29,376 bases of DNA from a virus. Both the position numbers and the translations under genes were made by a program. The notes under the pieces were generated by a model. That model worked only from the letters and a program-made list of their open reading frames with translations. It made no database searches and was not told the origin of the DNA. The DNA lies in IMG/VR virus record IMGVR_UViG_3300028025_004080, positions 1 to 29,376 of that record; one strand, 5' to 3'. This document shows positions 4,443-28,725 of the stretch, piece by piece. Position 1 is the stretch's first letter. The number at the start of each line of letters is the position of its first letter.

Positions 4443-4452
4443 AGAAACATGG

Positions 4453-5305: not shown

Positions 5306-5334
5306 TTGACTAACTAACGAAACGGGTGTATCTT
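5306..5334 (+). promoter_or_regulatory. Promoter nested in the gp32 terminator, driving uvsX
   Basis: TTGACT (5306-5311), 17-base spacer, TATCTT (5329-5334). The spacer contains most of the 5' arm of the terminator hairpin and the -10 runs into its loop. A start near 5341 would fall at the beginning of the 3' arm, so the new transcript could not rebuild the hairpin. Confidence 0.5.
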
Positions 5335-5351
5335 ATGGGTACACCCGTTTT
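5319..5351 (+). terminator. Rho-independent terminator after the gp32-like gene
   Basis: A 12-bp stem (5319-5330 with 5340-5351, one G-U at the base) encloses a 9-base loop, with a short T-rich 3' side (TTTTC). It separates the gp32-like gene from uvsX. Confidence 0.8.
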
Positions 5352-5372
5352 CATTTATCACAAAGGAACCAA

Positions 5373-6497
5373 ATGGCTAAAAAAACTCAAACAACGACAA
5401 ATGGTAAATTATCTATTGCACAAATGAGAGATGCAATTAATAAAAAAGCAGGAATTGAAGTTTCTTTTGATCTTCTTGAACAAAACCCATCAGAAGTAAC
5501 AGAATGGATTCCAACAGGTTCAGATGTACTAGATTCTATTATTTGCAGAGGCAAGAAAGCAGGAATTCCAGTTGGACGTATTACTGAACTTGCAGGTATT
5601 GAAGCCTCTGGTAAGTCTTACTTTGCTGCTCAGATTGCTGCTAATGCCCAAAAGATGGGAATGACCGTAGTTTACTTTGATTCAGAATCTGCACTAGATC
5701 CTTCTTTCCTTAGTAAAGCTGGTTGCAATGTAGGAGAGATAATTTATACTCAAGCAGTAAACATTGAGTTTGTTCTTGAAACTATTGAACAACTTCTTGG
5801 AGAAGGTGATCACTTCTTATTTGTTCTTGACTCGTTTGCATTTACTCCATCACTTGCAGACCTTGAAGGAGACTTTAATCCTCAGTCTTCAATGGCAGTA
5901 AAACCAAGAATTATGTCAAAAGGTCTTGCAAAACTTATTCAACCAATTGCAAACAAGAAAAGCACATTCCTTGTTCTTAACCAGCTAAAACAGAACATTG
6001 TAATGGGTCCAACAGCACATACAGAAATGCTTGTAAATCCATTTATAACTCCTGGTGGTAAAGCACTGTCTTATGCTTACTCACTTAGAATTTGGCTTAC
6101 TCCCAAAAAGAGTAAAGCAAGTTATGTTGTCTCACCAACAGGATTTAGAATTGGGTCAGAGACTAAATGTGTACTAAAGAAATCTCGTTTTGGTACAGAA
6201 GGTAGAGAATGTTCGCTTAAACTATTATGGGGTGGAGAGCGAGTAGAGGTTTCAGATCATGAAGCTTGGCTTGACATTATTTCTAAATCAGATAGAGCTT
6301 CAAGTGGTGCATGGTGGACAATTACTCTACTTGATGGGTCAGAAAAGAGATTTAGATCAGCAGACTTTGCCACAGAACTTCAGAATGAAAGCTTTAGAAA
6401 TGCTGTGTTGAGTATTGTAGAAGAAGAACTTATTACTAAGTTTGATAAGCAAACTGGTAATGCTTCAAATTATTACAACATAGAAAGCGAAGACTAA
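5373..6497 (+). CDS. uvsX: UvsX/RecA-like recombinase
   Basis: This 374-residue protein is a RecA-fold strand-exchange ATPase of the T4 UvsX type. The Walker A motif GIEASGKS spans 75-82. YFDSES follows at about 101-106, with the probable catalytic Glu at 105. The Walker B strand LFVLD ends at Asp153. An NQLK segment near 207 matches the RecA L2/sensor region. The length is close to T4 UvsX (about 390). UvsX pairs gp32-coated ssDNA with duplex DNA in recombination-dependent replication, and the gene directly follows the gp32-like gene. Start has AAAGGAA upstream. No separate UvsY mediator is recognisable in the window. Confidence 0.93.
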   Translation: MAKKTQTTTNGKLSIAQMRDAINKKAGIEVSFDLLEQNPSEVTEWIPTGSDVLDSIICRGKKAGIPVGRITELAGIEASGKSYFAAQIAANAQKMGMTVVYFDSESALDPSFLSKAGCNVGEIIYTQAVNIEFVLETIEQLLGEGDHFLFVLDSFAFTPSLADLEGDFNPQSSMAVKPRIMSKGLAKLIQPIANKKSTFLVLNQLKQNIVMGPTAHTEMLVNPFITPGGKALSYAYSLRIWLTPKKSKASYVVSPTGFRIGSETKCVLKKSRFGTEGRECSLKLLWGGERVEVSDHEAWLDIISKSDRASSGAWWTITLLDGSEKRFRSADFATELQNESFRNAVLSIVEEELITKFDKQTGNASNYYNIESED

Positions 6498-6515
6498 TCT
6501 AACTAAAACAAACAG

Positions 6516-6544
6516 GCTCCGTGGGGTTGACTTCCTCACGGGGC
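6516..6544 (+). terminator. Rho-independent terminator after uvsX
   Basis: An 11-bp GC-rich stem (6516-6526 with 6534-6544, two G-U pairs) has a 7-base loop and is followed by TTTGTT. It closes the uvsX unit. Confidence 0.75.
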
Positions 6545-6555
6545 TTTGTTACTAT
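6527..6555 (+). promoter_or_regulatory. Candidate promoter for the deaminase-helicase-RNR unit
   Basis: TTGACT (6527-6532) lies in the loop of the uvsX terminator. A 17-base spacer leads to TACTAT (6550-6555), just after the T tract. The start site would be near 6562, ahead of TTGGAGAG and the ATG at 6580. Confidence 0.55.
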
Positions 6556-6579
6556 CTATGTGTTGGAGAGAAGAACATC

Positions 6580-7005
6580 ATGGAGAGTCACCCGAGTAAT
6601 AAGCTGTCTAAGAAGAAGCAGCGGTTTATTGAGCTTGCATCGCGTATTGCTATGCAGACTGAGTTTCGCGAGTATAAGCATGGAGCAGTTCTTGTTCGTG
6701 CTGGTGCTGTTGTGAATACGTCTTGTAATAAGAACAAGTATAAGGCATGGGCCAATCAGTTTCGTAAGAAGCAGCGTGGTCATGCTACTGTTCATGCTGA
6801 GATTGGTGCTATTCTTGGTCTTGACCGCTCTGTTACTGAGGGTGCTACTATCTACGTTGTTCGTGTTGGTCGTGATGGATGCCTTCGTAATTCTAAGCCT
6901 TGTGCTATGTGTGAGGCTGCTATGCAGTATGTTGGCATCAAGAAGGTCATTTACTCTAATGAAGATGGACAGATTGAGTCTATGAGGATTTACAATGAGC
7001 TATAA
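6580..7005 (+). CDS. Cytidine/deoxycytidylate deaminase-family enzyme
   Basis: The 141-residue protein has both zinc signatures of the cytidine deaminase superfamily: H72-A-E74 (zinc ligand and proton-shuttling Glu) and PC108-AMC111. Phage members are usually dCMP deaminases that make dUMP for thymidylate synthesis, which fits ThyX and dUTPase in this window. A ComE-type or other small-base deaminase cannot be excluded. The usual nucleotide-specificity loop is short here. The region is noticeably richer in GC, with GGT/CGT/GCT codons, than its AT-rich neighbours, which could indicate later acquisition or strong expression. Start has TTGGAGAG upstream. The 3' end overlaps the next gene by 11 bases. 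Confidence 0.85.
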   Translation: MESHPSNKLSKKKQRFIELASRIAMQTEFREYKHGAVLVRAGAVVNTSCNKNKYKAWANQFRKKQRGHATVHAEIGAILGLDRSVTEGATIYVVRVGRDGCLRNSKPCAMCEAAMQYVGIKKVIYSNEDGQIESMRIYNEL

Positions 7006-7414
7006 TTGTTATGACGATGAAGACGACGTAGATAGATACAAGAATTATGGTTGGAAGTCTGGTTCTTCTAATGTTAAGCCTCAAAATGCTATCGGTAGTA
7101 CAGATAAAATTACTGATAGAGCATATTATCCTAATCGTGATTACCGTAATCCTTGGGATGAACAAGAAGAAGGTTGTTGGGTAATTCGTAAATCTAAAGG
7201 CTGTACTTCTATGAAAAAGGTAAGCCAAGAACAAGGAACTCAAGAACTTGAAGCATTTCATTATGCAATGGCTGTTTGTTACGATGTTATGATAAATGAA
7301 ATCTCAAACACAATTAATAATGGAAAGCCTTATTCAATTTCTGACATAGCTCTAAACACTATTGAAGCTATTGGAAAGGTTGTAAACGAAAGGAGAAAGA
7401 ATGTGGGAATCTGA
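6995..7414 (+). CDS. Unknown phage protein
   Basis: 139 residues with an acidic, Tyr-rich N-terminus (MSYNCYDDEDDVDRYKNYG), a low-complexity middle and a more regular helical C-terminal half containing ELEAFHYAMAVCYDVM and IALNTIEAIGKVVNERRK. I do not recognise it and see no catalytic motif. It overlaps the deaminase gene by 11 bases and the next gene by 14, so it is translated within the same operon. Confidence 0.65.
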   Translation: MSYNCYDDEDDVDRYKNYGWKSGSSNVKPQNAIGSTDKITDRAYYPNRDYRNPWDEQEEGCWVIRKSKGCTSMKKVSQEQGTQELEAFHYAMAVCYDVMINEISNTINNGKPYSISDIALNTIEAIGKVVNERRKNVGI

Positions 7415-7769
7415 AATGTACGATAAGTATCCAAAGACTCTTAAGGGTCTTTCTTACTTTGAAATTAATGAAGGATGGAAGGGACTTGTTGAAGAAATAA
7501 CTTCTAAAATTGAAACTATAAACAACAAGTATTCTCCATCAAGTTACGTTCGTGCTGCACAAGTTAAGCAGAAGTTTGGAGGTCTTAGATATTACATTAG
7601 TATTGAAGACGTTGAAGAACAAGATGTTAGACATATTTATGATATGATTGCAGAAGCAGAAAAAAGATCTTTTACTATCTGTGAGTATTGCGGTTCTCCA
7701 GCAAATATTTCTAGAGATAGACTTTATGTAGAGACACTATGCGATGAACACAGAACTTCAAGAAGGTGA
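7401..7769 (+). CDS. Unknown protein with C-terminal zinc-binding module
   Basis: 122 residues. The segment around 56-66 (KQKFGGLRYYI) and a C-terminal CEYCGSPA...LCDEH arrangement (two Cys pairs or CxxC plus C-x2-H) resemble a small phage/bacterial family of unknown function that ends in a treble-clef-like zinc site. Start has AAAGGAG at a good distance. The stop is overlapped by 26 bases by the next gene. Role unknown; nucleic-acid contact would be the usual guess for such a module but is not shown here. Confidence 0.7.
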   Translation: MWESEMYDKYPKTLKGLSYFEINEGWKGLVEEITSKIETINNKYSPSSYVRAAQVKQKFGGLRYYISIEDVEEQDVRHIYDMIAEAEKRSFTICEYCGSPANISRDRLYVETLCDEHRTSRR

Positions 7770-7971
7770 TTTAGTATGGGTTAATAAGTATGCTAAGTCA
7801 TACAGCTCAGAACTTATTATTCATCGTAAAATAAAACAAATGTCCTTACTAGAGGAATTTACTATTTTGGGTATTGTTGTTACAGCATACCCAGAACTTT
7901 GTTACGTTTGGGTAATGCAGGATGAAGAATACCACTATTTTTTCAAGGAGGATCTTAAATGCCAAGAATGA
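7744..7971 (+). CDS. Small SH3-like unknown protein
   Basis: 75 residues, mostly predicted beta. It begins NTELQEGDLVWVNKY, with several aromatic residues after it (LCYVWVMQDEEYHYFF). The opening resembles a KOW/SH3-type barrel. It overlaps the upstream gene by 26 bases and the nuclease gene by 13. The Shine-Dalgarno is weak, so translational coupling is likely. Confidence 0.55.
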   Translation: MNTELQEGDLVWVNKYAKSYSSELIIHRKIKQMSLLEEFTILGIVVTAYPELCYVWVMQDEEYHYFFKEDLKCQE

Positions 7972-8915
7972 TGATTGTTGATGCTAATAATCAGTATCTT
8001 CGTGCATACATTACTAATCCAACGCTTTCACCAAACGGTCAACCTGTAGGTGGTGTTGTTGGGTTTCTTAAAATTATGCAGAAGCTTTGTAACACAACAA
8101 ACCCAGATCTTATTTTTGTTTGTTGGGATGGCGAAGGTGGGTCTAAGAAACGTAAACTTATGAACTCAAATTATAAAGAGGGTCGTAATCCTCTTCGTTT
8201 GAATCGTGATGTTCGCAACCTTACAGAGAATGAAGAGATTTCCAATAGAATTTGGCAGCAAACTAGAGTTGCAGAATACTTTAATCAAATGCCAATAATC
8301 CAGCTTCTTTATCCAAACATTGAAGCAGATGATTTGATTTCGTATGTAGCAAATCATGAGCATTATAAGAAATGGCAAAAGGTAATTGTGTCTTCGGACA
8401 AAGATTTTATTCAACTTATTAATGATAAAACTGTTCTATATCGTCCTATTCAAGAAGAAATACTTAATGTAGCAAAAGTTGTTGAAAAGTATGGTGTTCA
8501 TCCTAATAACTTTGCCCTAGCAAGAGCAATTACTGGTGATGATAGTGATAATCTAAAAGGCGTGCGTGGTGTTGGAATGGCTACAGTAGCTAAAAAACTT
8601 CCAATGCTTACAGAAGACAAATCATATCTACCAAATGATGTTGTGGAGTTTTCCAAAGATAAGGAAGGAAAAGCATTTATAAGTATTGCATCATCATTTG
8701 AGGCGATTAGAGACAACTATCGCATCATGCAACTTTCATCTCCTCAAATTTCTTATCAAGTTAAACAGCAGATAGACGAGGTAATTGAAGACTTTAAGCC
8801 AGAGTTAAATCAACTTGAGTTTCGTAGAATGTCTATGCAAGATGGTTTTGGTGTTGTTGATTTTTCATCTTTGATGACTACATTCAAGAAGATTGTTGCT
8901 AATAAGACTACTTAG
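7959..8915 (+). CDS. T4 RNase H-like 5'-3' nuclease (FEN/5' exonuclease family)
   Basis: The 318-residue protein carries the FEN-family acidic residues in order: D8, D57 (CWDGEG), the IEADD block (121-125), SDKD (146-149) and GDDSDN (193-198). These are followed by a helix-turn-helix GVRGVGMATVAKKL, the H3TH element that grips duplex DNA. T4 RNase H (about 305 residues) removes RNA primers from lagging-strand fragments together with gp32. Length and motifs fit that role. The start has a strong AAGGAGG. It sits upstream of the helicase in the replication unit. Confidence 0.9.
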   Translation: MPRMMIVDANNQYLRAYITNPTLSPNGQPVGGVVGFLKIMQKLCNTTNPDLIFVCWDGEGGSKKRKLMNSNYKEGRNPLRLNRDVRNLTENEEISNRIWQQTRVAEYFNQMPIIQLLYPNIEADDLISYVANHEHYKKWQKVIVSSDKDFIQLINDKTVLYRPIQEEILNVAKVVEKYGVHPNNFALARAITGDDSDNLKGVRGVGMATVAKKLPMLTEDKSYLPNDVVEFSKDKEGKAFISIASSFEAIRDNYRIMQLSSPQISYQVKQQIDEVIEDFKPELNQLEFRRMSMQDGFGVVDFSSLMTTFKKIVANKTT

Positions 8916-8919
8916 ATGT

Positions 8920-9807
8920 ATGAAGTACAATTTAATTTTAGAGAGCTGGAAGAAGTTTCTTACTGAAGAAGAAACTTTAGTCAAAACAGCCACAGAAGTA
9001 GAAAACTCAATTGAGAATAAACAAGAAGAAGAAGAACAAAAAATTAAAAGTGTTATTGCTGCAATAAAATCTAGTATTGGTACTGGGATTCAATCACAAC
9101 AAGAAGTTATAAAAACTATACCTAACAAGCAAGCAATAAAAGATGCTTTAAAGAATGAAATAGATAGCTTAAGTCTTCAAGAGGCTATTGAAGAAGCTAA
9201 GAAAAGAAAAAGAGCTAAAGTTTCTAAAAAGAAGAAATCTGGTGGAGATAGGTGTACTAGAATAGCCAAACGTAAATATGATGTTTGGCCTTCTGCTTAT
9301 GCTTCTGGTGCTGTTGTTAAATGCCGTCAAGGAAAGATTTGGAAAGGCATAAGTGAAAACGCAACAGATGAAGAAATTGATAGTGAATTACTACTTGAAG
9401 AAGTTGAAGTAATTGAAGAGAAGTGGACTGAAAAATACAAACGTTCTATTGATTGTAAAAATCCAAAAGGTTTCTCTCAAAAAGCTCATTGTCAAGGAAG
9501 AAAGAAAAACGAAGAACTTGAACTTGATGATGAATTAGTTGAAGAAGCTAAAAAAAAAGCTTATAAGCCAAACTTCTCCAAAGAAAAAGAGCAAGGTCTT
9601 CACGGATGGTTTGCCAGAAATAATGGAAAAGGTTGGATAAATTGTAGAACTGGTGGTCCTTGTGGCCGTGATTCTTCTGACAAAGGTGGGAAATATCCAG
9701 CATGTAGACCAACTAAAGCACAATGTAAATCTGCTGGTAAAGGCCCACTAAGAAAAAAGAAATCTTCCAAACCAATTTCTTGGACTAAAAAGAAAAAGAA
9801 GGACTAA
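8920..9807 (+). CDS. Tagged, basic, Cys-rich modular protein; likely virion-internal
   Basis: The ATG at 8920 gives 295 residues starting MKYNLILESWKKFLTEEE, which looks like the T4 capsid-targeting peptide with an L-T-E protease site. After a coiled, acidic stretch come three compact basic modules. One is CTRIAKRKYDVWPSAYASG with a following KCR. The second is KRSIDCKNPKGFSQKAHCQG. The third contains LHGWFARNNGKGWINC, CG and YPACRP. The protein ends in a Lys-rich tail. I have seen modules of this kind repeatedly in large-phage proteins (some are listed as DUFs) but know no function. The modules have four, two and several Cys and could bind zinc. I infer a packaged, DNA-contacting protein. 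A TTG at 8893 would extend the frame but lacks the tag logic. Confidence 0.7.
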   Translation: MKYNLILESWKKFLTEEETLVKTATEVENSIENKQEEEEQKIKSVIAAIKSSIGTGIQSQQEVIKTIPNKQAIKDALKNEIDSLSLQEAIEEAKKRKRAKVSKKKKSGGDRCTRIAKRKYDVWPSAYASGAVVKCRQGKIWKGISENATDEEIDSELLLEEVEVIEEKWTEKYKRSIDCKNPKGFSQKAHCQGRKKNEELELDDELVEEAKKKAYKPNFSKEKEQGLHGWFARNNGKGWINCRTGGPCGRDSSDKGGKYPACRPTKAQCKSAGKGPLRKKKSSKPISWTKKKKKD

Positions 9808-9815
9808 TTAAGAAC

Positions 9816-10229: not shown

Positions 10230-10264
10230 ATCGTATTACTCTATAACTTCCCAAAAGGTGCAAA

Positions 10265-14054: not shown

Positions 14055-14063
14055 TAAAATAAC

Positions 14064-14092
14064 TTGACATAAACCTCCTAATTGATTATTTT
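14064..14092 (+). promoter_or_regulatory. Promoter nested in the nrdJ terminator
   Basis: A perfect TTGACA (14064-14069), 17-base spacer and TATTTT (14087-14092). The spacer is the 5' arm of the terminator and the -10 reaches its loop. A start near 14099 would lie in the 3' arm, which also contains the AGGAGG of the next gene. Confidence 0.6.
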
Positions 14093-14118
14093 AATGATAA
14101 TTGATTAGGAGGTTTTTT
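14071..14118 (+). terminator. Rho-independent terminator after nrdJ; 3' arm carries the next gene's Shine-Dalgarno
   Basis: A 19-bp stem (14071-14089 with 14097-14115, two G-U pairs) encloses a 7-base loop, and six T end it at 14118. AGGAGG (14107-14112) in the 3' arm is the Shine-Dalgarno for the ATG at 14119. Confidence 0.85.
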
Positions 14119-14346
14119 ATGTCTATTAAGTTAAATCATTTAGTACCAAGACAGGATAGGGATAGAAAATGTGATCCACAAGACCCAAACAGTAGAACAC
14201 ATTTCTTTATCTTTACTGGTCATGTAGAATCAAAATTTAATGGTCTTATCCAAGTAGATTTTGTTTGTAAACATTGCGAAAGAAGGGTAACAAGCTTTCT
14301 AACTCAAGAAGATTACCAAACTCACAAAAAATCATTAGGTGCATGA
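14119..14346 (+). CDS. Small zinc-finger-like unknown protein
   Basis: 75 residues from the ATG at 14119, six bases after a perfect AGGAGG. An upstream in-frame TTG at 14101 lies inside the terminator stem and is unlikely. C-terminal CKHCERR with an earlier RKC and a later His gives a possible zinc site. No family recognised. The stop overlaps the next start (ATGA). Confidence 0.65.
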   Translation: MSIKLNHLVPRQDRDRKCDPQDPNSRTHFFIFTGHVESKFNGLIQVDFVCKHCERRVTSFLTQEDYQTHKKSLGA

Positions 14347-14881: not shown

Positions 14882-14882
14882 A

Positions 14883-21200: not shown

Positions 21201-21669
21201 AGGTGCCAAACATTTCTGGTCAGCAGTAGCAGTTGATAGACCTCGTAAACTCAAGAATCTTATCGAGAACATTGAAACCTATAAACCAGAAGGTGAATTC
21301 TCAAATGAAGAAAAAATTGAGTATCTTACAGAACTAACTGGTGTTTATCCAATGAATCTTGTTGTATCTCCAGAAATTATGATTAGACTTCAAGAAAAGA
21401 TGGTTCCACCAATTTCTGAGTATGATGAAGAACTAGGACTTGCTTGGTTTGTTGTACGAGAGATTGAAAAGAAGAAAACAGCAACTGGTAAAGATTATTG
21501 GGTTCTTAATACAATTGACAGTACAAATACCGAAGTTAAAATTAAATGCTGGGGTATAAAAGAAAAAGACATTGTGTTTACTAATCGTCCTTATATGGTA
21601 AAACCAAATTATGATGATTGGGGATTTAGTGTGAATAATGTAGCCAAACAACTTAGATTGTTGGCATAA
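18250..21669 (+). CDS. dnaE: DNA polymerase III alpha subunit (DnaE) with apparently intact PHP domain
   Basis: 1139 residues, near the length of E. coli DnaE (1160). The polymerase motif GPGRGS is at 426-431. The metal-binding Asp residues are in PDIDYD (467-472) and KFDILG (Asp633). The N-terminal PHP domain keeps its putative metal ligands: H11-x-H13, TDHGN (44-48), GVEAY (Glu76), H130, Cys181 and CDSHY (255-259). In Thermus and related DnaE proteins this set gives a proofreading exonuclease, whereas it is degenerate in E. coli. A charged insertion occupies about 86-120. C-terminal helix-hairpin-helix and OB-type regions follow. It is the likely main replicase, an unusual choice beside T4-type gp32/gp41. 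A strong terminator follows. Confidence 0.95.
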   Translation: MNNEIKFVGLHAHSVAGSIFDGMGYPPDHMDFAYSNGMNALALTDHGNMNGLSWQVLHAKKMKKEGKDFKPIFGVEAYFIPSIEDWRAEYEKHKEDKKNKTEDESVTGAIVEDEGASKKEIKSLLNRRRHLVLLAMNQQGLNNIFKLVSESYKTENYYRYPRMDYTMLEKYNEGVIALSACLGGVYAGCYWENKDKGEEAILDSFRTVTKRMVSIFGDRWYGELQWNNVPEQHILNKYIIKMHEEFGIQLVTTCDSHYPNPDAWKDRELYKRLGWLGKGKPEWAEGNSELPAGVDEIGYELYPKNGEQVFESFQKYSKECGVHYQQSLVLESITNSYKIAHERIESFMPDNTVRLPNFVVPAGYTAGEALRHYCMEGMRNLGLLDKPNYIKQLDQELDVIEDRGFSKYFLTMKAISDKAQGMQLVGPGRGSAAGSLVSYVLGITQVDPIKHGLLFERFMTKNQDGFPDIDYDVSDPMVLKDVLIKEWGDTTVVPISNWNTLQLKSLVKDISKFYNIEFKEVNEVTSKMMLEATPLAKQKHGIKSGVYTPTFEEVKEYSVTLQGFLKKYPHIANHINALYGQVRSCSRHAGGVVVGENLDQYMPLINSDGVRQTPWSEGQNVRHLEPMGFIKFDILGIASLRMIEGAIRHILKRTKGIKNPTFEDVKAFYNENLHPDKMNMSDKKVYKNVFEKGNFAGVFQFTEAPVQEFCKKVKPKNIIDVSAITSIYRPGPLGADVDKLYIAAVEDPESIKYVHPIIKEVTKQTHGFLIFQEQIAILAHKLGKDVDLDEGNKLRKLLTKKGTGKGFEEKDKIHHKFIEGCVEKGIDKKEAQKLWETFEYFSGYGFNKSHAVCYSILSYQCAWLLTYYKAEWMAAFLDKEDAKNKEYAINLAKSMGFKIEPLNINTSGMVWEISEDGETLIQPLSSIKGLGEVAIQQIFNNRPFKTVEDFIFNENIVYSKLNKKALDVLIRSGACSTLIDERFTGAKHFWSAVAVDRPRKLKNLIENIETYKPEGEFSNEEKIEYLTELTGVYPMNLVVSPEIMIRLQEKMVPPISEYDEELGLAWFVVREIEKKKTATGKDYWVLNTIDSTNTEVKIKCWGIKEKDIVFTNRPYMVKPNYDDWGFSVNNVAKQLRLLA

Positions 21670-21690
21670 TTGATGGTTCCTTACTATTTA
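21661..21690 (+). promoter_or_regulatory. Weak candidate promoter nested in the dnaE terminator
   Basis: TTGGCA (21661-21666, 5 of 6), 18-base spacer, TATTTA (21685-21690, 3 of 6) in the hairpin loop. The geometry matches the other nested promoters but the -10 is poor. Confidence 0.3.
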
Positions 21691-21711
21691 ATTGGTAAGG
21701 AACCATTTTTT
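21673..21711 (+). terminator. Rho-independent terminator after dnaE
   Basis: A perfect 12-bp stem (21673-21684 with 21695-21706), a 10-base loop and six T. The 3' arm contains TAAGGA, the probable Shine-Dalgarno of the ATG at 21712. Confidence 0.85.
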
Positions 21712-22248
21712 ATGAAAAGAATAACAGAGGCGCAAATCAGACAAGTAATCAGAGAAGAAATACTTGGATTATTAAATGAGATACAGGCTTATGAAAGATA
21801 CCCAGAAATGGCACCAGAAAGCATAAGAAATAAAGGTGAATATTTAGGAAACATTACAGTTGAACAACTAATAAATGTGCTAGAAAAATTACCTGCCCCA
21901 TATACTTTAAATCAATTTGAATTTATGCAATTAAACTTTGATAAAAGACAAAAACCAATACTTCAAAATCAAGTTCACATTTTTAAATCAAATGTAGGTG
22001 ATTACTATTCATTTGCTTATTATGATGGTGATGGTTATCGTGACTTAACTTTATCACCAAAAAATGTTACAGGGCCAGCAAGCGGCAGATTTGAAACAAA
22101 ACCAAATGATTATATTTTTAAAGCTGTGCAAGAACAATACTCAAACAAAATTAGAATGCCTCATGCTAGTATTTCTTCTAACAAACCATTAGATACATCT
22201 GGAAATATTGCTGGTCTACCAAAAGACTTGCCTAGACCAGAAAGATAA
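21712..22248 (+). CDS. Tagged unknown protein, likely virion-associated
   Basis: 178 residues from the ATG at 21712. An in-frame ATG at 21673 would translate the terminator hairpin and is rejected. The N-terminus MKRITEAQIRQVIREEILGLLNE is an amphipathic helix with I-R-x-x-I-R-E-E and L-x-E features, closely similar to the C-termini of the phosphatase (1999) and acidic protein (28081). The remainder has a segment QVHIFKSNVGDYYSFAYYDGDGYRDLTLS, likely beta, and a Pro-rich end. Unknown function. It is a one-gene unit between two terminator/promoter elements. Confidence 0.65.
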   Translation: MKRITEAQIRQVIREEILGLLNEIQAYERYPEMAPESIRNKGEYLGNITVEQLINVLEKLPAPYTLNQFEFMQLNFDKRQKPILQNQVHIFKSNVGDYYSFAYYDGDGYRDLTLSPKNVTGPASGRFETKPNDYIFKAVQEQYSNKIRMPHASISSNKPLDTSGNIAGLPKDLPRPER

Positions 22249-22250
22249 GC

Positions 22251-22279
22251 TTGACACCCTAACCCTCCTTAGATAGTAT
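22251..22279 (+). promoter_or_regulatory. Promoter nested in terminator-like hairpin, driving the uvdE unit
   Basis: A perfect TTGACA (22251-22256), 17-base spacer and TAGTAT (22274-22279, 5 of 6). The -10 lies in the hairpin loop. The expected start near 22286 coincides with the GGAGG that serves as Shine-Dalgarno, giving an extremely short leader. Confidence 0.65.
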
Positions 22280-22293
22280 GTCTCTGGAGGGTT
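22261..22293 (+). terminator. Terminator-like hairpin before uvdE
   Basis: AACCCTCC (22261-22268) pairs with GGAGGGTT (22286-22293). An extra AGA/TCT pairing sits inside the 17-base loop. The T tract is interrupted (TTTCTCTTG), so termination may be partial. The 3' arm sequesters the Shine-Dalgarno. Confidence 0.6.
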
Positions 22294-22297
22294 TCTC

Positions 22298-23218
22298 TTG
22301 TCTATCAACCTCGGCTATGCCTGCATCAATATGGGATTTTCTGAGCGTCCAGCAAAGTCCCGAATTACTACAAACCGTACAATGATTCGTAAGACGTTTG
22401 ACGCAAAGGGAATCAATTATGCTGGAGAACTTATCGAGCAGAATCTCAATGACCTGTATACGATCCTACAATGGAATACAGCAAACGGAATTGGGTTCTA
22501 TCGTATGTCCTCCGATATGTTTCCTTGGGCATCCGAATACGGTGTCGCTAATCTCCCGAACATTGAGCGTGTTGCAGCTCTTCTTCGTAAGTGTGGGGAA
22601 TATGCTATTTCCACAAATCAGCGACTTTCTTTCCATCCTGGCCCATTCAACAAGCTCACATCTTCTAATCCTTCTGTAACCGAAAATACCATCAAGGATT
22701 TGACGGTTCATGCAGACATTATGGATTTGATGGGTCTTTCTCGTACTCACTACAACAAGATCAACATTCACGTTGGAGCAACTTACAAGAATAAGCCTAT
22801 GGCTGTAGAGCAGTTTCTTCGTAATTTTGAACTTCTTGAAGATAAGATTAGGAGTCGTTTTACGCTTGAGAATGATGATAAGGAATCTCTGTATACTACT
22901 GAGGAACTTTACAATCTTGTCTACAAGCATACCAACATTCCTATTGTTTTTGACTACCATCATCATAAGCTAAATAATGGTGGTATGTCTGAAAAAGATG
23001 CACTTGAAATTGCAATCTCTACTTGGCAAAACATCAAGCCTGTGGTACATTACTCAGAATCGCGGGCAGAAGAGCAAAATATCAAGTGCCCAGCGCAAGC
23101 ACACTCTGATTATGTTTACAAGCGTATTGACACCTATGGTCACGATGTAGACATTATGATTGAAGCAAAGATGAAGGAACTTGCAGTATTCAAGTATCGC
23201 GAACTACATAATGTATGA
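22298..23218 (+). CDS. UV-damage endonuclease UvdE-like
   Basis: 306 residues from a TTG start, chosen because GGAGG ends 7 bases upstream and the N-terminus SINLGYACINMGF is the first UvdE strand. The TIM-barrel metal site residues follow in order: FHPG (His113), NIHVG (His158), LEND (Glu191), FDYHHH (219-223), HYSES (His251) and HSDYV (His269). UvdE nicks DNA 5' of UV photoproducts and other lesions. Its C-richer codons differ from those of the neighbours, possibly reflecting acquisition. It is the first gene of the 22298-28647 unit. The stop overlaps a micro-ORF. Confidence 0.92.
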   Translation: MSINLGYACINMGFSERPAKSRITTNRTMIRKTFDAKGINYAGELIEQNLNDLYTILQWNTANGIGFYRMSSDMFPWASEYGVANLPNIERVAALLRKCGEYAISTNQRLSFHPGPFNKLTSSNPSVTENTIKDLTVHADIMDLMGLSRTHYNKINIHVGATYKNKPMAVEQFLRNFELLEDKIRSRFTLENDDKESLYTTEELYNLVYKHTNIPIVFDYHHHKLNNGGMSEKDALEIAISTWQNIKPVVHYSESRAEEQNIKCPAQAHSDYVYKRIDTYGHDVDIMIEAKMKELAVFKYRELHNV

Positions 23219-23304
23219 TAGATTTGTTGCCAATTGTGTTTGTTTCGCTTTTTCCTTTAATGGTTCTACTTTACCTATCAAGAAACGATAAGGACGAAAA
23301 ATAA
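23215..23304 (+). CDS. 29-residue membrane micro-protein candidate
   Basis: ATG (23215) overlaps the uvdE stop (ATGA). TAA (23302-23304) overlaps the next start (TAATG). The peptide has a hydrophobic span of about 18 residues (LLPIVFVSLFPLMVLLYL) followed by a charged tail, SRNDKDEK. Coupling at both ends and a clean transmembrane pattern argue that it is translated. Function unknown; many phages encode such peptides. Confidence 0.5.
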   Translation: MIDLLPIVFVSLFPLMVLLYLSRNDKDEK

Positions 23305-23933: not shown

Positions 23934-24424
23934 TGACAATGGATAAAGAAACCCTTGAATGGCTAGAGTTTGGTTCTAATCCCACACAGGAGAATAAAAT
24001 GAGTCTTAATCTTAAAGTTGTTAAAATGAGTGGATTTATAAATCTCACTCAACGTTCAGAAGGAAATGCAGGATTTGATCTTTATGCTACAGAAGAAGGC
24101 ATTTTAGCTCCAAATGAAAGAGTAGCAGTACCAGTTGGTATTTCTACGTCTTTTAGCCCAGAGTATTATATGCGGGTTGCTCCTCGTTCTGGCCTTGCAG
24201 CTAAGAATGGTATTAATGTTCTTGCTGGTGTTATTGACTCAAGTTATAGAGGAGAATGGAAAGTGATTCTTCATAACACATCAACGCTCCATTTTGATTG
24301 GGACATTGGTGATAGAATTGCACAAGCAATTCCAGAGAAGATTTCTACTGACCAATTTGAGTTTGTGGAGTCTTTAAGTGAAACTGATAGAGGAAGTGGT
24401 GGTTTCGGTTCGTCGGGACGTTGA
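23933..24424 (+). CDS. dut: dUTPase
   Basis: 163 residues from 23933. A second ATG at 23999 has a stronger AGGAG six bases upstream, lies closer to the first dUTPase strand (LNLKVVKM) and may be the true start, giving 141 residues. All five trimeric dUTPase motifs are present: AGFDLYA, APRSGLA, LAGVIDSSYRGEW, GDRIAQ and the C-terminal GSGGFGSSGR arm. The enzyme converts dUTP to dUMP, keeping uracil out of DNA and feeding ThyX. The 3' end overlaps the next small gene by 47 bases. Confidence 0.95.
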   Translation: MTMDKETLEWLEFGSNPTQENKMSLNLKVVKMSGFINLTQRSEGNAGFDLYATEEGILAPNERVAVPVGISTSFSPEYYMRVAPRSGLAAKNGINVLAGVIDSSYRGEWKVILHNTSTLHFDWDIGDRIAQAIPEKISTDQFEFVESLSETDRGSGGFGSSGR

Positions 24425-24617
24425 ACCACAAGAAGGAGACATTGTAAGGTATCACGTTGATAATATGGATTTTGACGGCATGTACATTACAAAAGTGTTT
24501 GATGATAGAGGTTTTGATATTAAAGAGTCTGTAGAATTTCACGAAGTTTTTGTGTTTGACACAGGCCACATGGAAAGATTTTTTGCTTTTGAACTACTTG
24601 GAGTTTTGGAACTATGA
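24378..24617 (+). CDS. Small unknown protein overlapping dut
   Basis: Up to 79 residues from GTG 24378; GTG 24396 or 24399 after AGAGGAA are alternative starts. Predicted beta-rich with VEPQEGDIVRYHVD, as in small SH3-like proteins, and an aromatic end (MERFFAFELL). The 47-base overlap with dut is long, but after the dut stop the frame stays open to the purA start, where it overlaps by 4 bases. Confidence 0.55.
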   Translation: MKLIEEVVVSVRRDVEPQEGDIVRYHVDNMDFDGMYITKVFDDRGFDIKESVEFHEVFVFDTGHMERFFAFELLGVLEL

Positions 24618-25636
24618 AAACTATTGATAATGTTGATGTTGTGTACGGGGCTTCGTGGGGCGATGAAGGCAAAGGAAAAATTACACATTTCTTAGCATCA
24701 AAACCAAACTATTATAATTTTGTTTGCAGATGGAACGGTGGGAGTAATGCTGGTCATACCATTTTTCATAATGGTAAGAAGTTTGCTACTCACATCGTAC
24801 CATCTGGTATTTTTTATGGTATTAAATCTGTAATTGGCCCAAATTGTGTAGTTAATATTGATTCTTTTTATAAAGAAGTTAATGAACTTGCTCTTGGAGG
24901 TCTTAATACCTCACTTATTAAAATTCATCCATTAGCACACATTGTAACTAGTGAACATATTGAAGAAGATAAAGCTAAGCTAGGGCATCTTGGAACAACT
25001 TCACAAGGTATAGCACCAGCATATCGAGACAAAGCCGCCAGAAAGGGTCTACTTGCCAAAGATAGCACAATAGATAAATCCTACATTTTAAATGAAGAAC
25101 TATACGGGAACATTCTTTGTGAAGGCGCACAGGGATACCATCTTGATATTAATTATGGCAATTATCCATTTATTACATCAAGTGAATGTTTACCATATGG
25201 TGCTTGTTCACTAGGCTTTCCACCACAAAAGATTAAGAATGTTTTTGCTTGTGCTAAAATTTATGATACTCGTTCTGGTACAGACCCTTTGTTTCCAGAA
25301 AGTTTACTTGAAGATCCTACTCTTTTAAGTATAGCTGACGCTGGAAAAGAATACGGTACAACAACTGGTCGTAGACGTAAAGTTAATTGGTTAAATCTTG
25401 ATAAACTTATTGAGGCGATTAAGATTGGTGGTGCCACACATCTTGTAATAAACAAATGTGACATTCTTAAACAAATTGGTATCTATAAAGCGTTTCACGA
25501 AGGAAAACTAATTGAGTTCAAAACATTTGATGAATTACAAGACTTTATTGATTTTGTTTGTTATAATAGTTCTGATTTGCTAGAGTACATTTACTTTAGT
25601 GGAAACCCAGAAATTATTGAAGGATTTGAAGTATGA
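24614..25636 (+). CDS. purA: Short adenylosuccinate synthetase (PurA/PurZ-family)
   Basis: 340 residues, against about 430 for bacterial PurA and about 340 for archaeal PurA. The P-loop W15-GDEGKGK is at 15-22 with the catalytic-base Asp17. NAGHT (45-49) follows, then a GTTSQGIAPAY...ARKGL block, EGAQG...LDINYGNYPFITSS, GTTTGRRRKVNWL and NKCD. PurA joins aspartate to IMP with GTP. PurZ enzymes of 2-aminoadenine phages use dGMP and, as I recall, replace the catalytic Asp by Ser/Gly. Here Asp is kept, so ordinary IMP chemistry, or the Asp-retaining PurZ0 type, is favoured. A guaB-like gene lies about 1 kb downstream. Confidence 0.9.
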   Translation: MKTIDNVDVVYGASWGDEGKGKITHFLASKPNYYNFVCRWNGGSNAGHTIFHNGKKFATHIVPSGIFYGIKSVIGPNCVVNIDSFYKEVNELALGGLNTSLIKIHPLAHIVTSEHIEEDKAKLGHLGTTSQGIAPAYRDKAARKGLLAKDSTIDKSYILNEELYGNILCEGAQGYHLDINYGNYPFITSSECLPYGACSLGFPPQKIKNVFACAKIYDTRSGTDPLFPESLLEDPTLLSIADAGKEYGTTTGRRRKVNWLNLDKLIEAIKIGGATHLVINKCDILKQIGIYKAFHEGKLIEFKTFDELQDFIDFVCYNSSDLLEYIYFSGNPEIIEGFEV

Positions 25637-25881
25637 GTTCAGCACGCAAGATCAAAAAGCAAAATAGAATAATTCAAGAAAAAGCACTTTTATTTGATGC
25701 ATTACCACAAAAATGTAATGGTTGTAGCACACCATACGATAGAAATAATAGAGATCAAGCTTTTTCTTGGTCTGTAATGGTGTTCAATGAAAGTAAACAA
25801 GTTAAATTATTCTGTCCTACTTGCTATAAAGATGTTCAAGCATGGGCAGAAGATACAGTTAAAGAGGCTGAAAATGAGTAA
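25633..25881 (+). CDS. Small zinc-binding unknown protein
   Basis: 82 residues: basic N-terminus (ARKIKKQNRIIQ), then C-N-G-C and, 40 residues later, CPTC. The four Cys probably hold one zinc. The intervening WSVMVFNESKQVKLF is a beta hairpin. ATGA overlap with purA; 8-base overlap with the DUF3310 gene. No function known. Confidence 0.65.
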   Translation: MSSARKIKKQNRIIQEKALLFDALPQKCNGCSTPYDRNNRDQAFSWSVMVFNESKQVKLFCPTCYKDVQAWAEDTVKEAENE

Positions 25882-26161
25882 CTACGATTATATTCCAAGT
25901 GCGGAACAAATGACTAAAGCACTTGAGAAGTTAAATAAAGTCCAAGAAATGGTGGATCATCCAGCTCATTATAACTTTGGTGAAATTGAAGCTATTGACA
26001 TTATTGAAGATCAAGGTTTAGGTGAAGCTTTTTGTGCTGCAAACATAATTAAATATGTTTTGAGATATAAGCATAAAGGTACACCACTAAAAGACCTTCA
26101 AAAAATTAAATGGTACACAGAGAGGTTAATAAGTTATTATGAAAATAGTAGTAAAAAATAA
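25874..26161 (+). CDS. DUF3310 (SaV-like) protein
   Basis: 95 residues with the family core from about 27 to 90: VDHPAHYNFGEIEAIDIIE, FCAANIIKYVLRYKHKGTP and DLQKIKWYTERLI. DUF3310 proteins are common in phages and often sit among nucleotide-metabolism genes. Their activity is not settled. Its place between purA and the guaB-like gene is in line with that. Start at 25874 overlaps the upstream gene; a longer frame beginning at 25787 has no support. Confidence 0.85.
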   Translation: MSNYDYIPSAEQMTKALEKLNKVQEMVDHPAHYNFGEIEAIDIIEDQGLGEAFCAANIIKYVLRYKHKGTPLKDLQKIKWYTERLISYYENSSKK

Positions 26162-26513
26162 TTCAATTGTAAAAGAACTTGGTTTTGAAGATTTTGAAGA
26201 AATAACTAAATCTGGTAAACCATATGTTGTAAAATTTACAAGTGCTACATGCCATTTGTGTAAAGGTCTTAAACCAATTTTTGAGCAAATAGCAGAACAA
26301 TATAAAGACAAGTTTAAGTTTGGAAACGTAAATTCTTCTACACAAAGAAAATTATTTAGATTGTTTAATATTGATGGAGTACCAGAAATTTTTATAATAC
26401 ATGGTAATGATTTGTACCATATAGAATATCCAGAAGATAATGCAGATCCAATTTCTGGTTATCCAAAAGATTATATAACTGAACATTTGGACAATTACCA
26501 TGATAGCATCTAG
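26139..26513 (+). CDS. Thioredoxin-like protein
   Basis: 124 residues with a thioredoxin fold. Active site C38-H-L-C41 follows strand YVVKFTSAT, and the cis-Pro segment GVPEIFII lies near residue 80. The CHLC sequence is unlike the usual CGPC, so redox potential may differ. A natural role would be to reduce the class II ribonucleotide reductase. Overlaps both neighbours (23 and 14 bases). Confidence 0.85.
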   Translation: MKIVVKNNSIVKELGFEDFEEITKSGKPYVVKFTSATCHLCKGLKPIFEQIAEQYKDKFKFGNVNSSTQRKLFRLFNIDGVPEIFIIHGNDLYHIEYPEDNADPISGYPKDYITEHLDNYHDSI

Positions 26514-26688
26514 AGCAGTAGAGATACATAATTTAATTTATATGCTTGAAATGGCTATGAAAAAATATCCAGATTTAAGGCTAATGCAACTTCTTGGTAA
26601 TGGGTTTCCTGCTGTAGATAACTACTATGTTGACGATAAAAAAGTAATGGATTATCTTGTAAAGCTTGTGAACCAAGTGGAGGATTGA
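26500..26688 (+). CDS. Small unknown protein
   Basis: 62 residues: helix AVEIHNLIYMLEMAMKKYP, then LRLMQLLGNGFP and a C-terminal helix. It looks like a small phage protein that I cannot name. Its stop overlaps the guaB-like start, and a candidate promoter for that gene lies within its 3' half. Weak Shine-Dalgarno, so coupled translation is likely. Confidence 0.6.
   Translation: MIASRAVEIHNLIYMLEMAMKKYPDLRLMQLLGNGFPAVDNYYVDDKKVMDYLVKLVNQVED
26630..26658 (+). promoter_or_regulatory. Candidate internal promoter for the guaB-like gene
   Basis: TTGACG (26630-26635), 17-base spacer, TATCTT (26653-26658). The -10 is the same as that of the uvsX promoter. It is inside a coding region, so chance cannot be ruled out. 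Confidence 0.35.
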
Positions 26689-27722
26689 TGTTTCGGGAAG
26701 CACTTACATATGATGATGTACTTTTAGTTCCACAATATAGTGATATTGAAAGTCGTAAAGAAATAAACCTTGGAAATTGGCTTGATGAAGAAAGAGGTTT
26801 GTGGTTTGACTTACCAATCATTTCTTCTCCTATGGATACTGTAACCGAAGATAAAATGGCTATTCTTATTGGCAAAATGGGTGGTCTTGGAATTGTTCAT
26901 AGATATAATACTATTGAAAGACAATGTGAGATTGCAGATACTATTTGTGAAGAAATTGGTTCAAATAAGTTTGGTTGTGCTATTGGAATTACAGGAGATT
27001 ATCTTGAAAGAGCAACAGCACTAGTAGAATCAAATGTTAAAATTCTTTGTTTAGATGTTGCTCATGGTGACCACATTTTGATGAAAAACGCCCTAATTAC
27101 TCTTAGGGAGAAACTAGGCAATGGACCACACCTCATGGCAGGAAATGTTGCAACGCTTAGTGGTTTTGATAATCTTGTTTCTTGGGGAGCTAATTCAATT
27201 CGTGTTGGTATTGGTGGGGGTAGCATTTGTTCTACTCGTATTCAAACTGGTCATGGAGTTCCTTCTTTGGATAGCGTAATGGATTGTGTAAGGACTGATA
27301 AGAATGTTTCGATTATTGCTGACGGTGGCATTAGAAATTCTGGTGATATTGTTAAAGCTCTTGGTATTGGGGCTGATTTTGCTATGCTCGGTTCAGTTCT
27401 TGCTGGAAGCGATAAAACTCCAGGTGAAACGTATATTAGTGCAAGGACAGGAGAAGCTTCTAAAACCTATCGTGGCATGGCTTCTAAAGACGCACAAATG
27501 GATTGGAGAGGTAAGGCATCTTCGCTTGAAGGAATTTCAACAACAATTCCATATAAAGGAGAAACAAGAGCAATTATCGAACAACTTGATAATGGTATAC
27601 GTTCTGGTTTTTCTTATTCTGGAGCGAGAACCATTAATGAATTCTGGTATAAGGCAAGGTTTGTTAAACAAACCTCAGCAGCAGCAAGAGAATCAGATAC
27701 CCACATCCTACACAGAAGATAA
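26688..27722 (+). CDS. IMP dehydrogenase/GMP reductase-family enzyme without CBS domains
   Basis: 344 residues from the ATG at 26688, with GGAGG 4 bases upstream. The (beta/alpha)8 barrel shows LTYDDVLLVP (6-15), SSPMDTVTE (47-54), the catalytic-loop GIGGGSICSTR with Cys181, and ADGGIRNSGDIVKAL (211-225). MLGS and YKGE follow. The N-terminal DTVTE and ADGGIR fit IMP dehydrogenase. The short flap between YRGMAS and SLEG, lacking an obvious RYF, looks more like GMP reductase. The two CBS domains of typical IMPDH (about 490 residues) are absent, so allosteric control by ATP/GTP is probably lost. It would act at the same IMP branch point as the PurA-like enzyme. Confidence 0.85.
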   Translation: MFREALTYDDVLLVPQYSDIESRKEINLGNWLDEERGLWFDLPIISSPMDTVTEDKMAILIGKMGGLGIVHRYNTIERQCEIADTICEEIGSNKFGCAIGITGDYLERATALVESNVKILCLDVAHGDHILMKNALITLREKLGNGPHLMAGNVATLSGFDNLVSWGANSIRVGIGGGSICSTRIQTGHGVPSLDSVMDCVRTDKNVSIIADGGIRNSGDIVKALGIGADFAMLGSVLAGSDKTPGETYISARTGEASKTYRGMASKDAQMDWRGKASSLEGISTTIPYKGETRAIIEQLDNGIRSGFSYSGARTINEFWYKARFVKQTSAAARESDTHILHRR

Positions 27723-28030
27723 TGAGCGAAATTTCTAGAGTTTCATTTAAATTTCCCACAGTAAAATGTGCTGAACTTGCAGTAAAAATGAAAAATGATA
27801 ATGTTAGAAAACAACAATTTTTTCAAGCAATTGCACAAGCATATCTATCAGATGATGATGAATTTATTAAATGGTGGCATAATCATTTAAAAAATATCAA
27901 AATTCCTAAAGCTAGATTAAAAGCAAAAATTCAACTAATTAATGAAGGCAAAGAACTTGAAAAAGACTTTGCTCTTAATGAAGAAGAAATAGAAAATATT
28001 TTTGATATTTTAGAAAATTTTGAAGATTAA
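27722..28030 (+). CDS. Unknown helical phage protein
   Basis: 102 residues, helical: RKQQFFQAIAQAYLSDDDEFIKWW, a basic middle and an acidic C-terminus (EEEIENIFDILENFED). The FFQAIAQAYL-x-D segment looks like a small DNA- or transcription-associated phage protein, but no match is certain. It overlaps the upstream stop (TAATG). Confidence 0.6.
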   Translation: MSEISRVSFKFPTVKCAELAVKMKNDNVRKQQFFQAIAQAYLSDDDEFIKWWHNHLKNIKIPKARLKAKIQLINEGKELEKDFALNEEEIENIFDILENFED

Positions 28031-28052
28031 AAAGTATTTTTAAAAAAAGCGC

Positions 28053-28072
28053 ACTATTTATTCGTGTAGGAG
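28053..28072 (+). promoter_or_regulatory. CTATTTAT-N6-AGGAG leader, possible late-promoter variant
   Basis: CTATTTAT (28054-28061), six bases, then AGGAG (28068-28072) before the ATG at 28081. The same arrangement stands before the gene at 1643 (1618-1636). The block resembles T4 late TATAAATA at 5 to 6 of 8 positions. The role is inferred. Confidence 0.3.
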
Positions 28073-28080
28073 CAATACAA

Positions 28081-28647
28081 ATGAGCAAGAAACCTTTATT
28101 ATCAGAAAGTCAAGTAGCAAAATGGATGAAACTTGCTAACATTGACAAAAATGCAACACAAAATTTCCTTACAGAAAATAAAAAAAGCAACAAAAAGTTA
28201 GTTAAAGAGAATATGTCTTATGCCCGTCAAGATGAAGAATCCCCAGTAGATGATATGGAAAGCATGGACGATATGGGTGGTATGGATGATATGGGTGATG
28301 GTGCTATGGGCGAAGAACCATCCGTAGAAGAACCAATGGATGATATGGGAGCCGATGAAGGCGAAGTAGAATTTGATTCAGTAGATGATTTAAAAACAGT
28401 AATTAAAGATGCAGTAATGGACGCTCTTAGCGAACTTGGCCTTGCCGATGAAATGGGTGGTGGCGAAGAAGAAGCAGAAGAAGAGCTTGATCTCGGCATG
28501 GAGGGAGGCGATGAAGGGGGTGATGACTCTGCCGAACCCGCCGAAGATGACGAGGACGATGTACCACTTGCAGAAGGTGTAGAAGTCCTTACCGACAATG
28601 AGGTTATCAACGAAGTCCTCAAACGTGTTATTCGTAGATTAGTCTGA
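28081..28647 (+). CDS. Very acidic tagged protein, possible head scaffold/core component
   Basis: 188 residues. The N-terminal 50 are basic with NFLTEN (28-33), a T4-like L-x-E protease site. Residues 51-165 are almost all Asp/Glu/Gly/Met with short DDM and MGGMDDMG repeats. The C-terminus is a basic amphipathic helix, EVLKRVIRRLV. Acidic, helical and cleavable is the pattern of T4 internal core proteins and small scaffolds. The next genes include a ClpP-like protease, suggesting a head-assembly neighbourhood. A DNA-mimic or ion-binding role is an alternative. Antisense open frames here are composition artefacts. Confidence 0.6.
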   Translation: MSKKPLLSESQVAKWMKLANIDKNATQNFLTENKKSNKKLVKENMSYARQDEESPVDDMESMDDMGGMDDMGDGAMGEEPSVEEPMDDMGADEGEVEFDSVDDLKTVIKDAVMDALSELGLADEMGGGEEEAEEELDLGMEGGDEGGDDSAEPAEDDEDDVPLAEGVEVLTDNEVINEVLKRVIRRLV

Positions 28648-28666
28648 TAAAATAAAATAATAAAGG

Positions 28667-28695
28667 TTGCTCTTTTGACTACGCAGGGTTATAAT
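28667..28695 (+). promoter_or_regulatory. Promoter nested in terminator, -10 in the loop
   Basis: TTGCTC (28667-28672, 4 of 6), 17-base spacer, perfect TATAAT (28690-28695), which forms the hairpin loop. A start near 28702 would fall in the 3' arm. TTGACT at 28676 is only 9 bases from the -10 and cannot be its -35. Confidence 0.55.
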
Positions 28696-28713
28696 GACTC
28701 TGCGTAGTTTTTT
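28678..28713 (+). terminator. Rho-independent terminator after the acidic protein gene
   Basis: A 12-bp stem (28678-28689 with 28697-28708), 7-base loop (TATAATG) and six T (28708-28713). Confidence 0.85.
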
Positions 28714-28725
28714 ATTTGGAGAAAA

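Follow-up and report, generated by a model that had tools for sequence, protein, structure and literature searches.

Whose transcription does a phage gene follow when its own promoter lies inside a hairpin that RNA arriving from the upstream gene would also form? The question is raised by a stretch of 29,376 bases from a virus (IMG/VR record IMGVR_UViG_3300028025_004080, positions 1 to 29,376), hereafter the window, whose source is an uncultured tailed phage and whose called genes all lie on the + strand. A preliminary description of the window had pointed to short gaps between genes in which promoter boxes (TTGAC and TANNNT) coincide with the terminator hairpin of the preceding gene, and had proposed that RNA reading through forms the whole hairpin whereas RNA begun inside lacks the 5' arm and cannot. 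Boxes, hairpins, pairing of the Shine-Dalgarno sequence, conservation, covariation and a sense-strand bias are seen in the sequence, and we consider it likely that these boundaries act as firewalls against read-through, each with a promoter inside.

Hairpins and promoter boxes at the gene boundaries

All hairpins of the window were scored blind to the earlier finding. The five with the highest scores (14071-14115, 21672-21707, 28677-28709, 5319-5351 and 6514-6546) fell in five of the six gaps of the preliminary description. Among the window gaps of at least 20 bases, a raw hairpin score of at least 28 was reached in 5 of 11, against a shuffled mean of 0.025. A TTGAC-N16-18-TANNNT promoter nested in a stem scoring at least 18 occurred in 3 of these 11 gaps, against a mean of 0.0 over 500 shuffles, the score thresholds having been fixed only after the sites were known. 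The comparison of nested boxes with shuffled sequence, proposed earlier, thus came out in their favour.

Three gaps combine both boxes, a spacer of 17 bases and a hairpin (all window features lie on the + strand). Before uvsX, a sigma70-type promoter (TTGACT, TATCTT; 5306-5334) overlaps a terminator-type hairpin of 15 pairs (5319-5351, arms 5319-5333 and 5337-5351; z -3.55), which ends in TTTT (5348-5351) followed by C and leaves the Shine-Dalgarno sequence (5363-5367) outside the stem. After the class II ribonucleotide reductase, the promoter of an open reading frame (ORF) of 75 amino acids (TTGACA, TATTTT; 14064-14092) overlaps a hairpin of 20 pairs (14071-14115, arms 14071-14090 and 14096-14115; z -8.9); its 3' arm holds the Shine-Dalgarno sequence AGGAGG (14107-14112), and a T-run (14113-14118) leads directly to the start codon at 14119. 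In the uvdE gap, the promoter (TTGACA, TAGTAT; 22251-22279) accompanies an 8-bp stem (22261-22293, arms 22261-22268 and 22286-22293; z -5.1) whose 3' arm, GGAGGGTT, is the Shine-Dalgarno sequence of uvdE, with a TTG start at 22298.

A fourth gap had been assigned the same geometry. There, a weaker promoter (TTGCTC, 17 bases, TATAAT; 28667-28695) overlaps a terminator-type hairpin (28677-28709, arms 28677-28691 and 28695-28709; z -5.5) with a T-run at 28708-28713; the Shine-Dalgarno sequence GGAG (28718-28721) lies outside the stem and the start codon is at 28726. The TTGCTC box matches only 3 of 6 positions at the correct spacing, and TTGACT at 28675, though a better match, leaves a distance of only 9 bases to the -10. 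Both boxes were kept in the three relatives found (L232, L233 and L234), of which two are nearly identical to each other and one to the window. The shared geometry therefore holds at 5306, 14064 and 22251, but at 28667 only the hairpin and the TATAAT are strong and the -35 is poor.

The gap before the dCMP deaminase gene, set apart in the preliminary description (at 6516) for having its -35 in the loop, indeed has a layout of its own. The loop of the hairpin at 6514-6546 is the -35, and the 3' arm is the spacer of the promoter (TTGACT, 17 bases, TACTAT with the extended -10 TGT; 6527-6555). The remaining hairpin, at the dnaE boundary (21672-21707, arms 21672-21686 and 21693-21707), carries AAGGA (21697-21701) in its 3' arm and a T-run (21706-21711) directly before the start codon at 21712. 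Within it lies a ACTATTTA box (21683-21690), a candidate for a promoter of another class, which may be late. Hexamers resembling TTGACA and TATAAT, 16-18 bases apart and kept in relatives, were found at 5306, 6527, 14064 and 22251, but not at 21661. The stem is followed immediately by six T at 14071, 21672 and 28677 and by four at 5319; the tract is weak at 22261 (TTTCTCTT) and at 6514 (TTTGTT). A Shine-Dalgarno sequence paired in the 3' arm is present at 14071, 22261 and 21672 and absent from the stems at 5319, 28677 and 6514.

Two further places in the window were noted. A TTGAC-TANNNT promoter, a ACTATTTA box and a good hairpin are all absent from the longest gap (23219-23303, 85 bases). 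Where the ORF preceding the SSB gene ends, TTGACG-N17-TAAGAT is followed by a weak, non-nested hairpin at 4451-4478 (whole element 4414-4478).

Enrichment, conservation and RNA structure

When the search was extended to loci L001-L292 together with the window, a nested stem scoring at least 28 was found at 54 of 1077 distinct TTGAC-N16-18-TANNNT sites. No such stem occurred with the motif read backwards (542 sites) or with two permuted motifs (326 and 394 sites), and 93 occurred at 60,000 random positions; a spacer of exactly 17 bases gave 51 of 684 sites. At a stem score of at least 24, 60 nested sites were counted in the relatives and the window, and the 51 with a recognised downstream gene belonged to 9 protein families by BLASTP linkage. 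A broader scan, for any promoter matching 9 of 12 positions with any hairpin, proved too permissive, gave only a weak strand contrast and was abandoned.

The stricter pattern TTGAC-N5-CCTCC-N8-TATANT, followed after 4-30 bases by GGAGG, occurred in 108 stretches of viral contigs, compared with 17 when the non-complementary TCCCC replaced CCTCC and 3 when the arms were exchanged. Of the 74 distinct viral sites that were read, 37 had the GGAGG paired in a stem scoring at least 22, and 22 of these had a U-tract. The TCCCC control (0 of 14) is weaker evidence here than the comparison with cellular genomes given below, because the exact pattern itself supplies five pairs and the control none. Judged by eye, 21 of the 37 viral sites precede a protein similar to the dCMP deaminase (16) or the UvdE (5) of the window. 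Very long, near-perfect palindromes with TTGAC/TATANT and GGAGG were also seen in bacterial contigs (L472:2919, L519:5811, L523:1187, L441:6192 and L486:6010). The proteins that follow them, again by eye, resemble an antitoxin-type regulator, ATPases and unknowns, and these palindromes could be operators or locks.

Conservation was counted over distinct relative regions with a stem score of at least 17. After the ribonucleotide reductase, the nested geometry was kept in 17 of 19 regions at 75% identity or more, in 1 of 28 at 65-75% and in 0 of 8 below. For the uvdE gap the same three classes gave 15 of 19, 9 of 9 and 4 of 39, and the promoter boxes on their own 19 of 19, 9 of 9 and 31 of 39. 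The uvsX gap had the nested geometry in 6 of 8 relatives with at least 75% UvsX identity, in both of those at 65-75% and in none of the 99 below; the TTGAC-TANNNT promoter was present in 7 of the 8 closest. The arms changed in a compensated manner. Among 14 chosen distinct sequences after the ribonucleotide reductase, 95.3% of cells were paired and 13 of 20 pairs had changed on both sides (covariation 0.569 against 0.250 when shuffled); among 19 chosen at uvdE, the values were 83.8% and 9 of 14 (0.437 against 0.206).

The second layout is likewise kept: at 75% identity or more, the deaminase gap of distinct relatives had the promoter in 14 of 16 and the hairpin in 15 of 16. With a stem score of at least 22, a -35 in the loop was found for 15 of 861 distinct motifs (L002-L234 plus the window), compared with 0 of 395 for the reversed motif. 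It recurs in relatives with changed arms, and the promoter RNA there would include no part of the stem. Below 65% identity, the deaminase gene of 9 of 31 relatives instead follows the nested layout.

Folding of the predicted RNAs gave a clear difference between the two possible origins of transcription. With the 5' arm, the five leaders of the other boundaries folded at -21.7 to -28.9 kcal/mol (z -3.6 to -8.9), whereas from the predicted start they reached at most -2.9 kcal/mol (z 0.6 to -0.6; a start at 21692 was assumed for 21672). The layout at 6514 gave -31.8 against 0 from its predicted start. Under symmetric scoring, the stems of 72 sites (a few lie within coding sequence) contained 115 G.U but only 34 A.C pairs; G.U pairs prevailed at 48 sites and A.C pairs at 11. 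Such an excess is to be expected of an RNA structure of the sense strand and not of a DNA dyad. The asymmetry between read-through and nested transcripts, as originally proposed, hence finds backing in the sequence, its conservation, the covariation and the sense-strand G.U pairs.

The Shine-Dalgarno sequence lay within the 3' arm at 37 of the 60 nested sites (score at least 24), spread over 6 gene families, with a match of four bases only in 17 of the 37. A U-tract was strong at 15 of these 37, weak at 14 and lacking at 8, suggesting that the stem can outlive the terminator. At the other 23 sites, the Shine-Dalgarno sequence was downstream at 13 (U-tract strong at 10, weak at 2, lacking at 1), partly in the arm at 1 and not recognised at 9. 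Between Shine-Dalgarno sequence and start codon, nested sites averaged 0.51 T and 0.12 A (n=15), compared with 0.28 T and 0.46 A for other genes (n=910), and a T fraction of at least 0.6 was found in 5 of the 15 against 80 of the 910. From this T-rich spacer it appears that many elements pack -35, -10, hairpin, U-tract, Shine-Dalgarno sequence and start codon into about 60 bases. To call these hairpins terminators of the preceding gene, as was done before, is consequently only part of the description: termination is likely at many sites, but at three in the window the 3' arm also holds the Shine-Dalgarno sequence.

Proposed read-through barriers and their alternatives

Promoter activity, start positions, efficiency of termination, translational block and purpose are what we infer from the sequence, and they would combine as follows. 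The 17-base promoter spacer encodes the 5' arm, and the 3' arm follows directly after the -10. A polymerase coming from the upstream gene would then make RNA with the complete hairpin. At sites with a U-tract (14064, 21672 and 28677, and the short tract at 5306), much of this RNA would terminate; at sites whose 3' arm forms the Shine-Dalgarno sequence (14064, 21672 and 22251), RNA that continues would have its ribosome site paired and be poorly translated. The hairpins at 14064, 22251 and 21683 could thus hide a ribosome site besides, or in place of, terminating. RNA from the nested promoter is predicted to begin in the loop or the 3' arm, near 5341, 14099 and 22286. Lacking the 5' arm, it would form no hairpin and would be translated, with a leader some 12 to 32 nt long. 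The purpose might be that the gene is made dependent on its own promoter and hence on its own timing.

Several observations weigh against such a barrier. Promoter-like matches as such were not enriched in the window over shuffled sequence (50 against 50.6; 59 against 57.3), so that the evidence consists in their conjunction with a hairpin and in its conservation. Other spacers also yielded nested stems (3 of 269 sites for 16 bases, 13 of 249 for 19, 2 of 147 for 14, 11 of 531 for 22-24 and 3 of 521 for 10-12), some of which probably arise when one of the hairpins already counted is combined with a different TANNNT, and the sites counted throughout are related sequences and not independent events. 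Among the matches listed from cellular genomes, a paired GGAGG (score at least 22) was present at 18 of 117 distinct sites, 3 of them with a U-tract; the nested layout is not exclusive to viruses. The putative device is moreover lineage-bound and fades with distance. In the uvsX gap of L007 the hairpin was kept without a TTGAC promoter, and in that of L010 it was kept with TTGACC-N17-TAAACT upstream of the stem, not nested. At 28667 and 5306, the position of the Shine-Dalgarno sequence outside the stem excludes hiding of the ribosome site as the function there. The hairpins begin 2 to 29 nt past the upstream stop codon (2 bases at 21672), and a ribosome translating near the stop codon can suppress a terminator (PMC4824070). 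Finally, the positive control, T4 scanned with its late box TATAAATA, recovered the hairpin of gene e (1 of 32 sites, directly before that gene), which counts in favour of the barrier, but soc, 49 and I-TevI were missed, which points to limited sensitivity.

These points leave room for other explanations. Terminator and promoter might simply be packed together into gaps of 42 to 82 bases, with an overlap that has no regulatory meaning. Such space saving agrees with the short gaps that the nested sites occupy and with their T-rich tails, and it is all that the terminator-type sites 5306 and 28667 require. It predicts neither the Shine-Dalgarno sequence in the 3' arm (37 of 60) nor the stems kept without a U-tract (8 of 37), nor that arms with CCTCC first should so outnumber those with GGAGG first (108 against 3 stretches), an excess that is partly explained by promoters being followed by a GGAGG ribosome site (17 stretches in the non-complementary control). 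We regard space saving as unlikely to be the whole story.

A hairpin that serves only to terminate the upstream gene, with chance or weak promoter boxes and downstream expression by read-through, would fit the shuffle-level frequency of promoter-like matches as well as the uvsX hairpins of L007, without a -35, and L010, with the promoter outside. The -35 and -10 are, however, kept while the arms change (uvdE 19 of 19 and 9 of 9; after the ribonucleotide reductase 17 of 19), and control motifs have almost no nested stems; this account is very improbable. Dyad symmetry over a promoter is also the usual form of an operator, and the palindromes might be DNA sites for a repressor or activator of each promoter instead of RNA structures. 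We give this proposal next to no credence and rejected it on the excess of G.U over A.C pairs, 115 to 34, which is not expected of a DNA dyad; furthermore, the arm sequences differ between boundaries of one genome and change by compensation in relatives. The read-through barrier with a nested promoter accordingly remains our preferred explanation.

A possible second promoter class and known systems

The dnaE boundary had been listed as a fifth nested site, with a weak -10 downstream of 21661. This claim did not hold: TTGGCA at 21661 is the last two sense codons of dnaE, and of seven distinct relatives with a DnaE C-terminus at least 75% identical, all kept the hairpin and all carried ACTATTTA, while none had TTGAC-TANNNT there. 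A sigma70 -10 was ruled out on this last count. The ACTATTTA box favours the coding over the other strand (32 against 7 in G005, 11 against 0 in G008, 10 against 0 in G003 and 4 against 0 in the window), and in 162 of 368 distinct sites a Shine-Dalgarno sequence and start codon followed within 50 nt, compared with 281 of 6704 sites for 25 anagrams. It was nested in a stem scoring at least 24 at 18 of the 368 sites, against 16 of the 6704. Ten of the 18 are the dnaE boundary in different relatives and the other 8 fall in about six places; several of the stems cover the Shine-Dalgarno sequence or the start codon. In the window, two further boxes stand without a hairpin, in the gaps before the genes at 1643 (1617-1624) and at 28081 (28053-28060). 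The first of these genes (1643-1999) encodes a protein of 118 amino acids that matches phrog_858 (starvation-inducible transcriptional regulator).

Apparently, ACTATTTA marks a second class of promoters, possibly a late one. Proteins of the late sigma family phrog_234 were found in the distant relatives G015 and G007 (L286:14469-15170; L280:15353-16129 on the - strand), with a 60% identical homologue in G005 (109060-109716); a tblastn search covering the window listed no match there. Ten of the 19 genes found downstream of ACTATTTA in G005 were scanned: four matched (PhoH, endonuclease VII, HNH/endonuclease and one of unknown function) and six had no match. In nine related contigs, the T4-type sliding clamp (PF02916) was not detected, by a search whose control matched in only 1 of 14 genomes, none over the cut-off, so that this negative carries no information. 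Sigma70 region 2 reached E values up to 0.05 in three of the nine, none over the cut-off, and region 4 was found in one, over the cut-off. Two places in G005 were noted besides. Before a PhoH-like gene (L239:10904-10937; G005 90104-90137), TTGACA-N17-TATACT overlaps a ACTATTTA box (TATACTATTTA), and both promoter classes apparently share one -10 region. Before an HNH/endonuclease VII-like gene (L090:12133; G005 19022), ACTATTTA is nested in a ribosome-site hairpin, which recalls the T4 homing endonucleases that have such a hairpin.

It is conceivable, although we would sooner doubt than assert it, that this phage lineage uses one standard boundary module, a hairpin slot of about 60 bases that combines terminator, ribosome-site lock and promoter and seats either a sigma70-type early box or a late ACTATTTA box. 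The box would set the timing of the downstream gene, and the hairpin would deafen that gene to neighbours of the other class. A still bolder idea is that a polymerase terminated at the U-tract, about 20 bases past the nested -10, may restart there.

The called genes of the window include a gp32-like SSB, RecA/UvsX, dCMP deaminase, 5'-3' exonuclease, DnaB helicase, class II ribonucleotide reductase, PolIII-alpha DNA polymerase and UvdE. Pfam searches of 10 window proteins returned gp32, RecA, dCMP deaminase, 5'-3' exonuclease, DnaB, ribonucleotide reductase, PolIII alpha and UvdE, with two proteins lacking a match. UvsX, the reductase, UvdE and the polymerase had no match of at least 60% identity among 50,697 phage records.

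The closest precedent is found in T4, where a late promoter in a ribosome-site hairpin can silence early read-through at a handful of genes (PMC3014915; PMC2988022). In the sections of these papers that concern us, RNA structure closes off the ribosome sites of e, soc, 49 and I-TevI, and for e and I-TevI late promoters give RNA without the 5' part, which is translated. Similar arrangements, with late or middle promoters, are described in part of PMC2988022 for I-TevII, I-TevIII, segB and Aeh1 mobE. As at gene e, RNA from upstream of the window boundaries would fold a hairpin over the ribosome site and RNA from the nested promoter would lack the 5' strand; a promoter in the 5' strand or loop is present at 14064 and 22251 and, as ACTATTTA, at 21683, with predicted starts. 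The T4 box is the late TATAAATA read by the late sigma gp55, whereas here the box is mostly TTGAC-N17-TANNNT, next to the separate ACTATTTA class, and many sites add a U-tract. The presumed device is a variant of the T4 arrangement and not a member of it, because its TTGAC sites lack the late promoter that defines that arrangement. At a stem score of at least 22, the window together with 13 related contigs, some of them almost identical to it, had nested TTGAC-TANNNT sites in 23 of 339 cases, compared with 0 of 29 in T4, 0 of 58 in P-SSM4, 0 of 9 in SPO1 and 0 of 1 in lambda.

Protection from outside transcription is also known from IS10/Tn10 and IS200, where RNA reading in from outside folds so as to terminate or to hide the ribosome site of the transposase. 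The likeness lies in this use of read-through RNA; the difference is that those elements guard a mobile gene in a foreign neighbourhood, whereas the genes here serve phage DNA metabolism, and no mobile-element gene was among the Pfam matches of the 10 window proteins scanned. Terminators placed 5' of transposases are described, in the part of PMC2965389 that deals with them, as preventing expression of insertion sequences that have landed in a transcribed region. With intrinsic (rho-independent) terminators, the window hairpins share a stable stem and a T-run at 14071, 21672 and 28677, and a short one at 5319; they differ in that the stem contains a promoter, that the 3' arm holds the Shine-Dalgarno sequence at three sites and that several relatives have no T-run. 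In the open-licence literature, we found no description of sigma70 promoters nested in phage terminator or ribosome-site hairpins, and earlier reports elsewhere are possible. What seems new is the use of sigma70-type and ACTATTTA boxes in the same hairpin slot, often with a superimposed U-tract and at several genes.

If the nested promoters act as proposed, ordinary annotation would call a terminator at such boundaries and miss the promoter and the lock, and the element might serve as a compact insulator for synthetic circuits. Here, at several boundaries and across many related contigs, host-type promoters and a second phage box would carry a logic like that of T4, often in combination with a terminator. 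This would explain how promoters stay independent in a compact genome whose genes share one strand.

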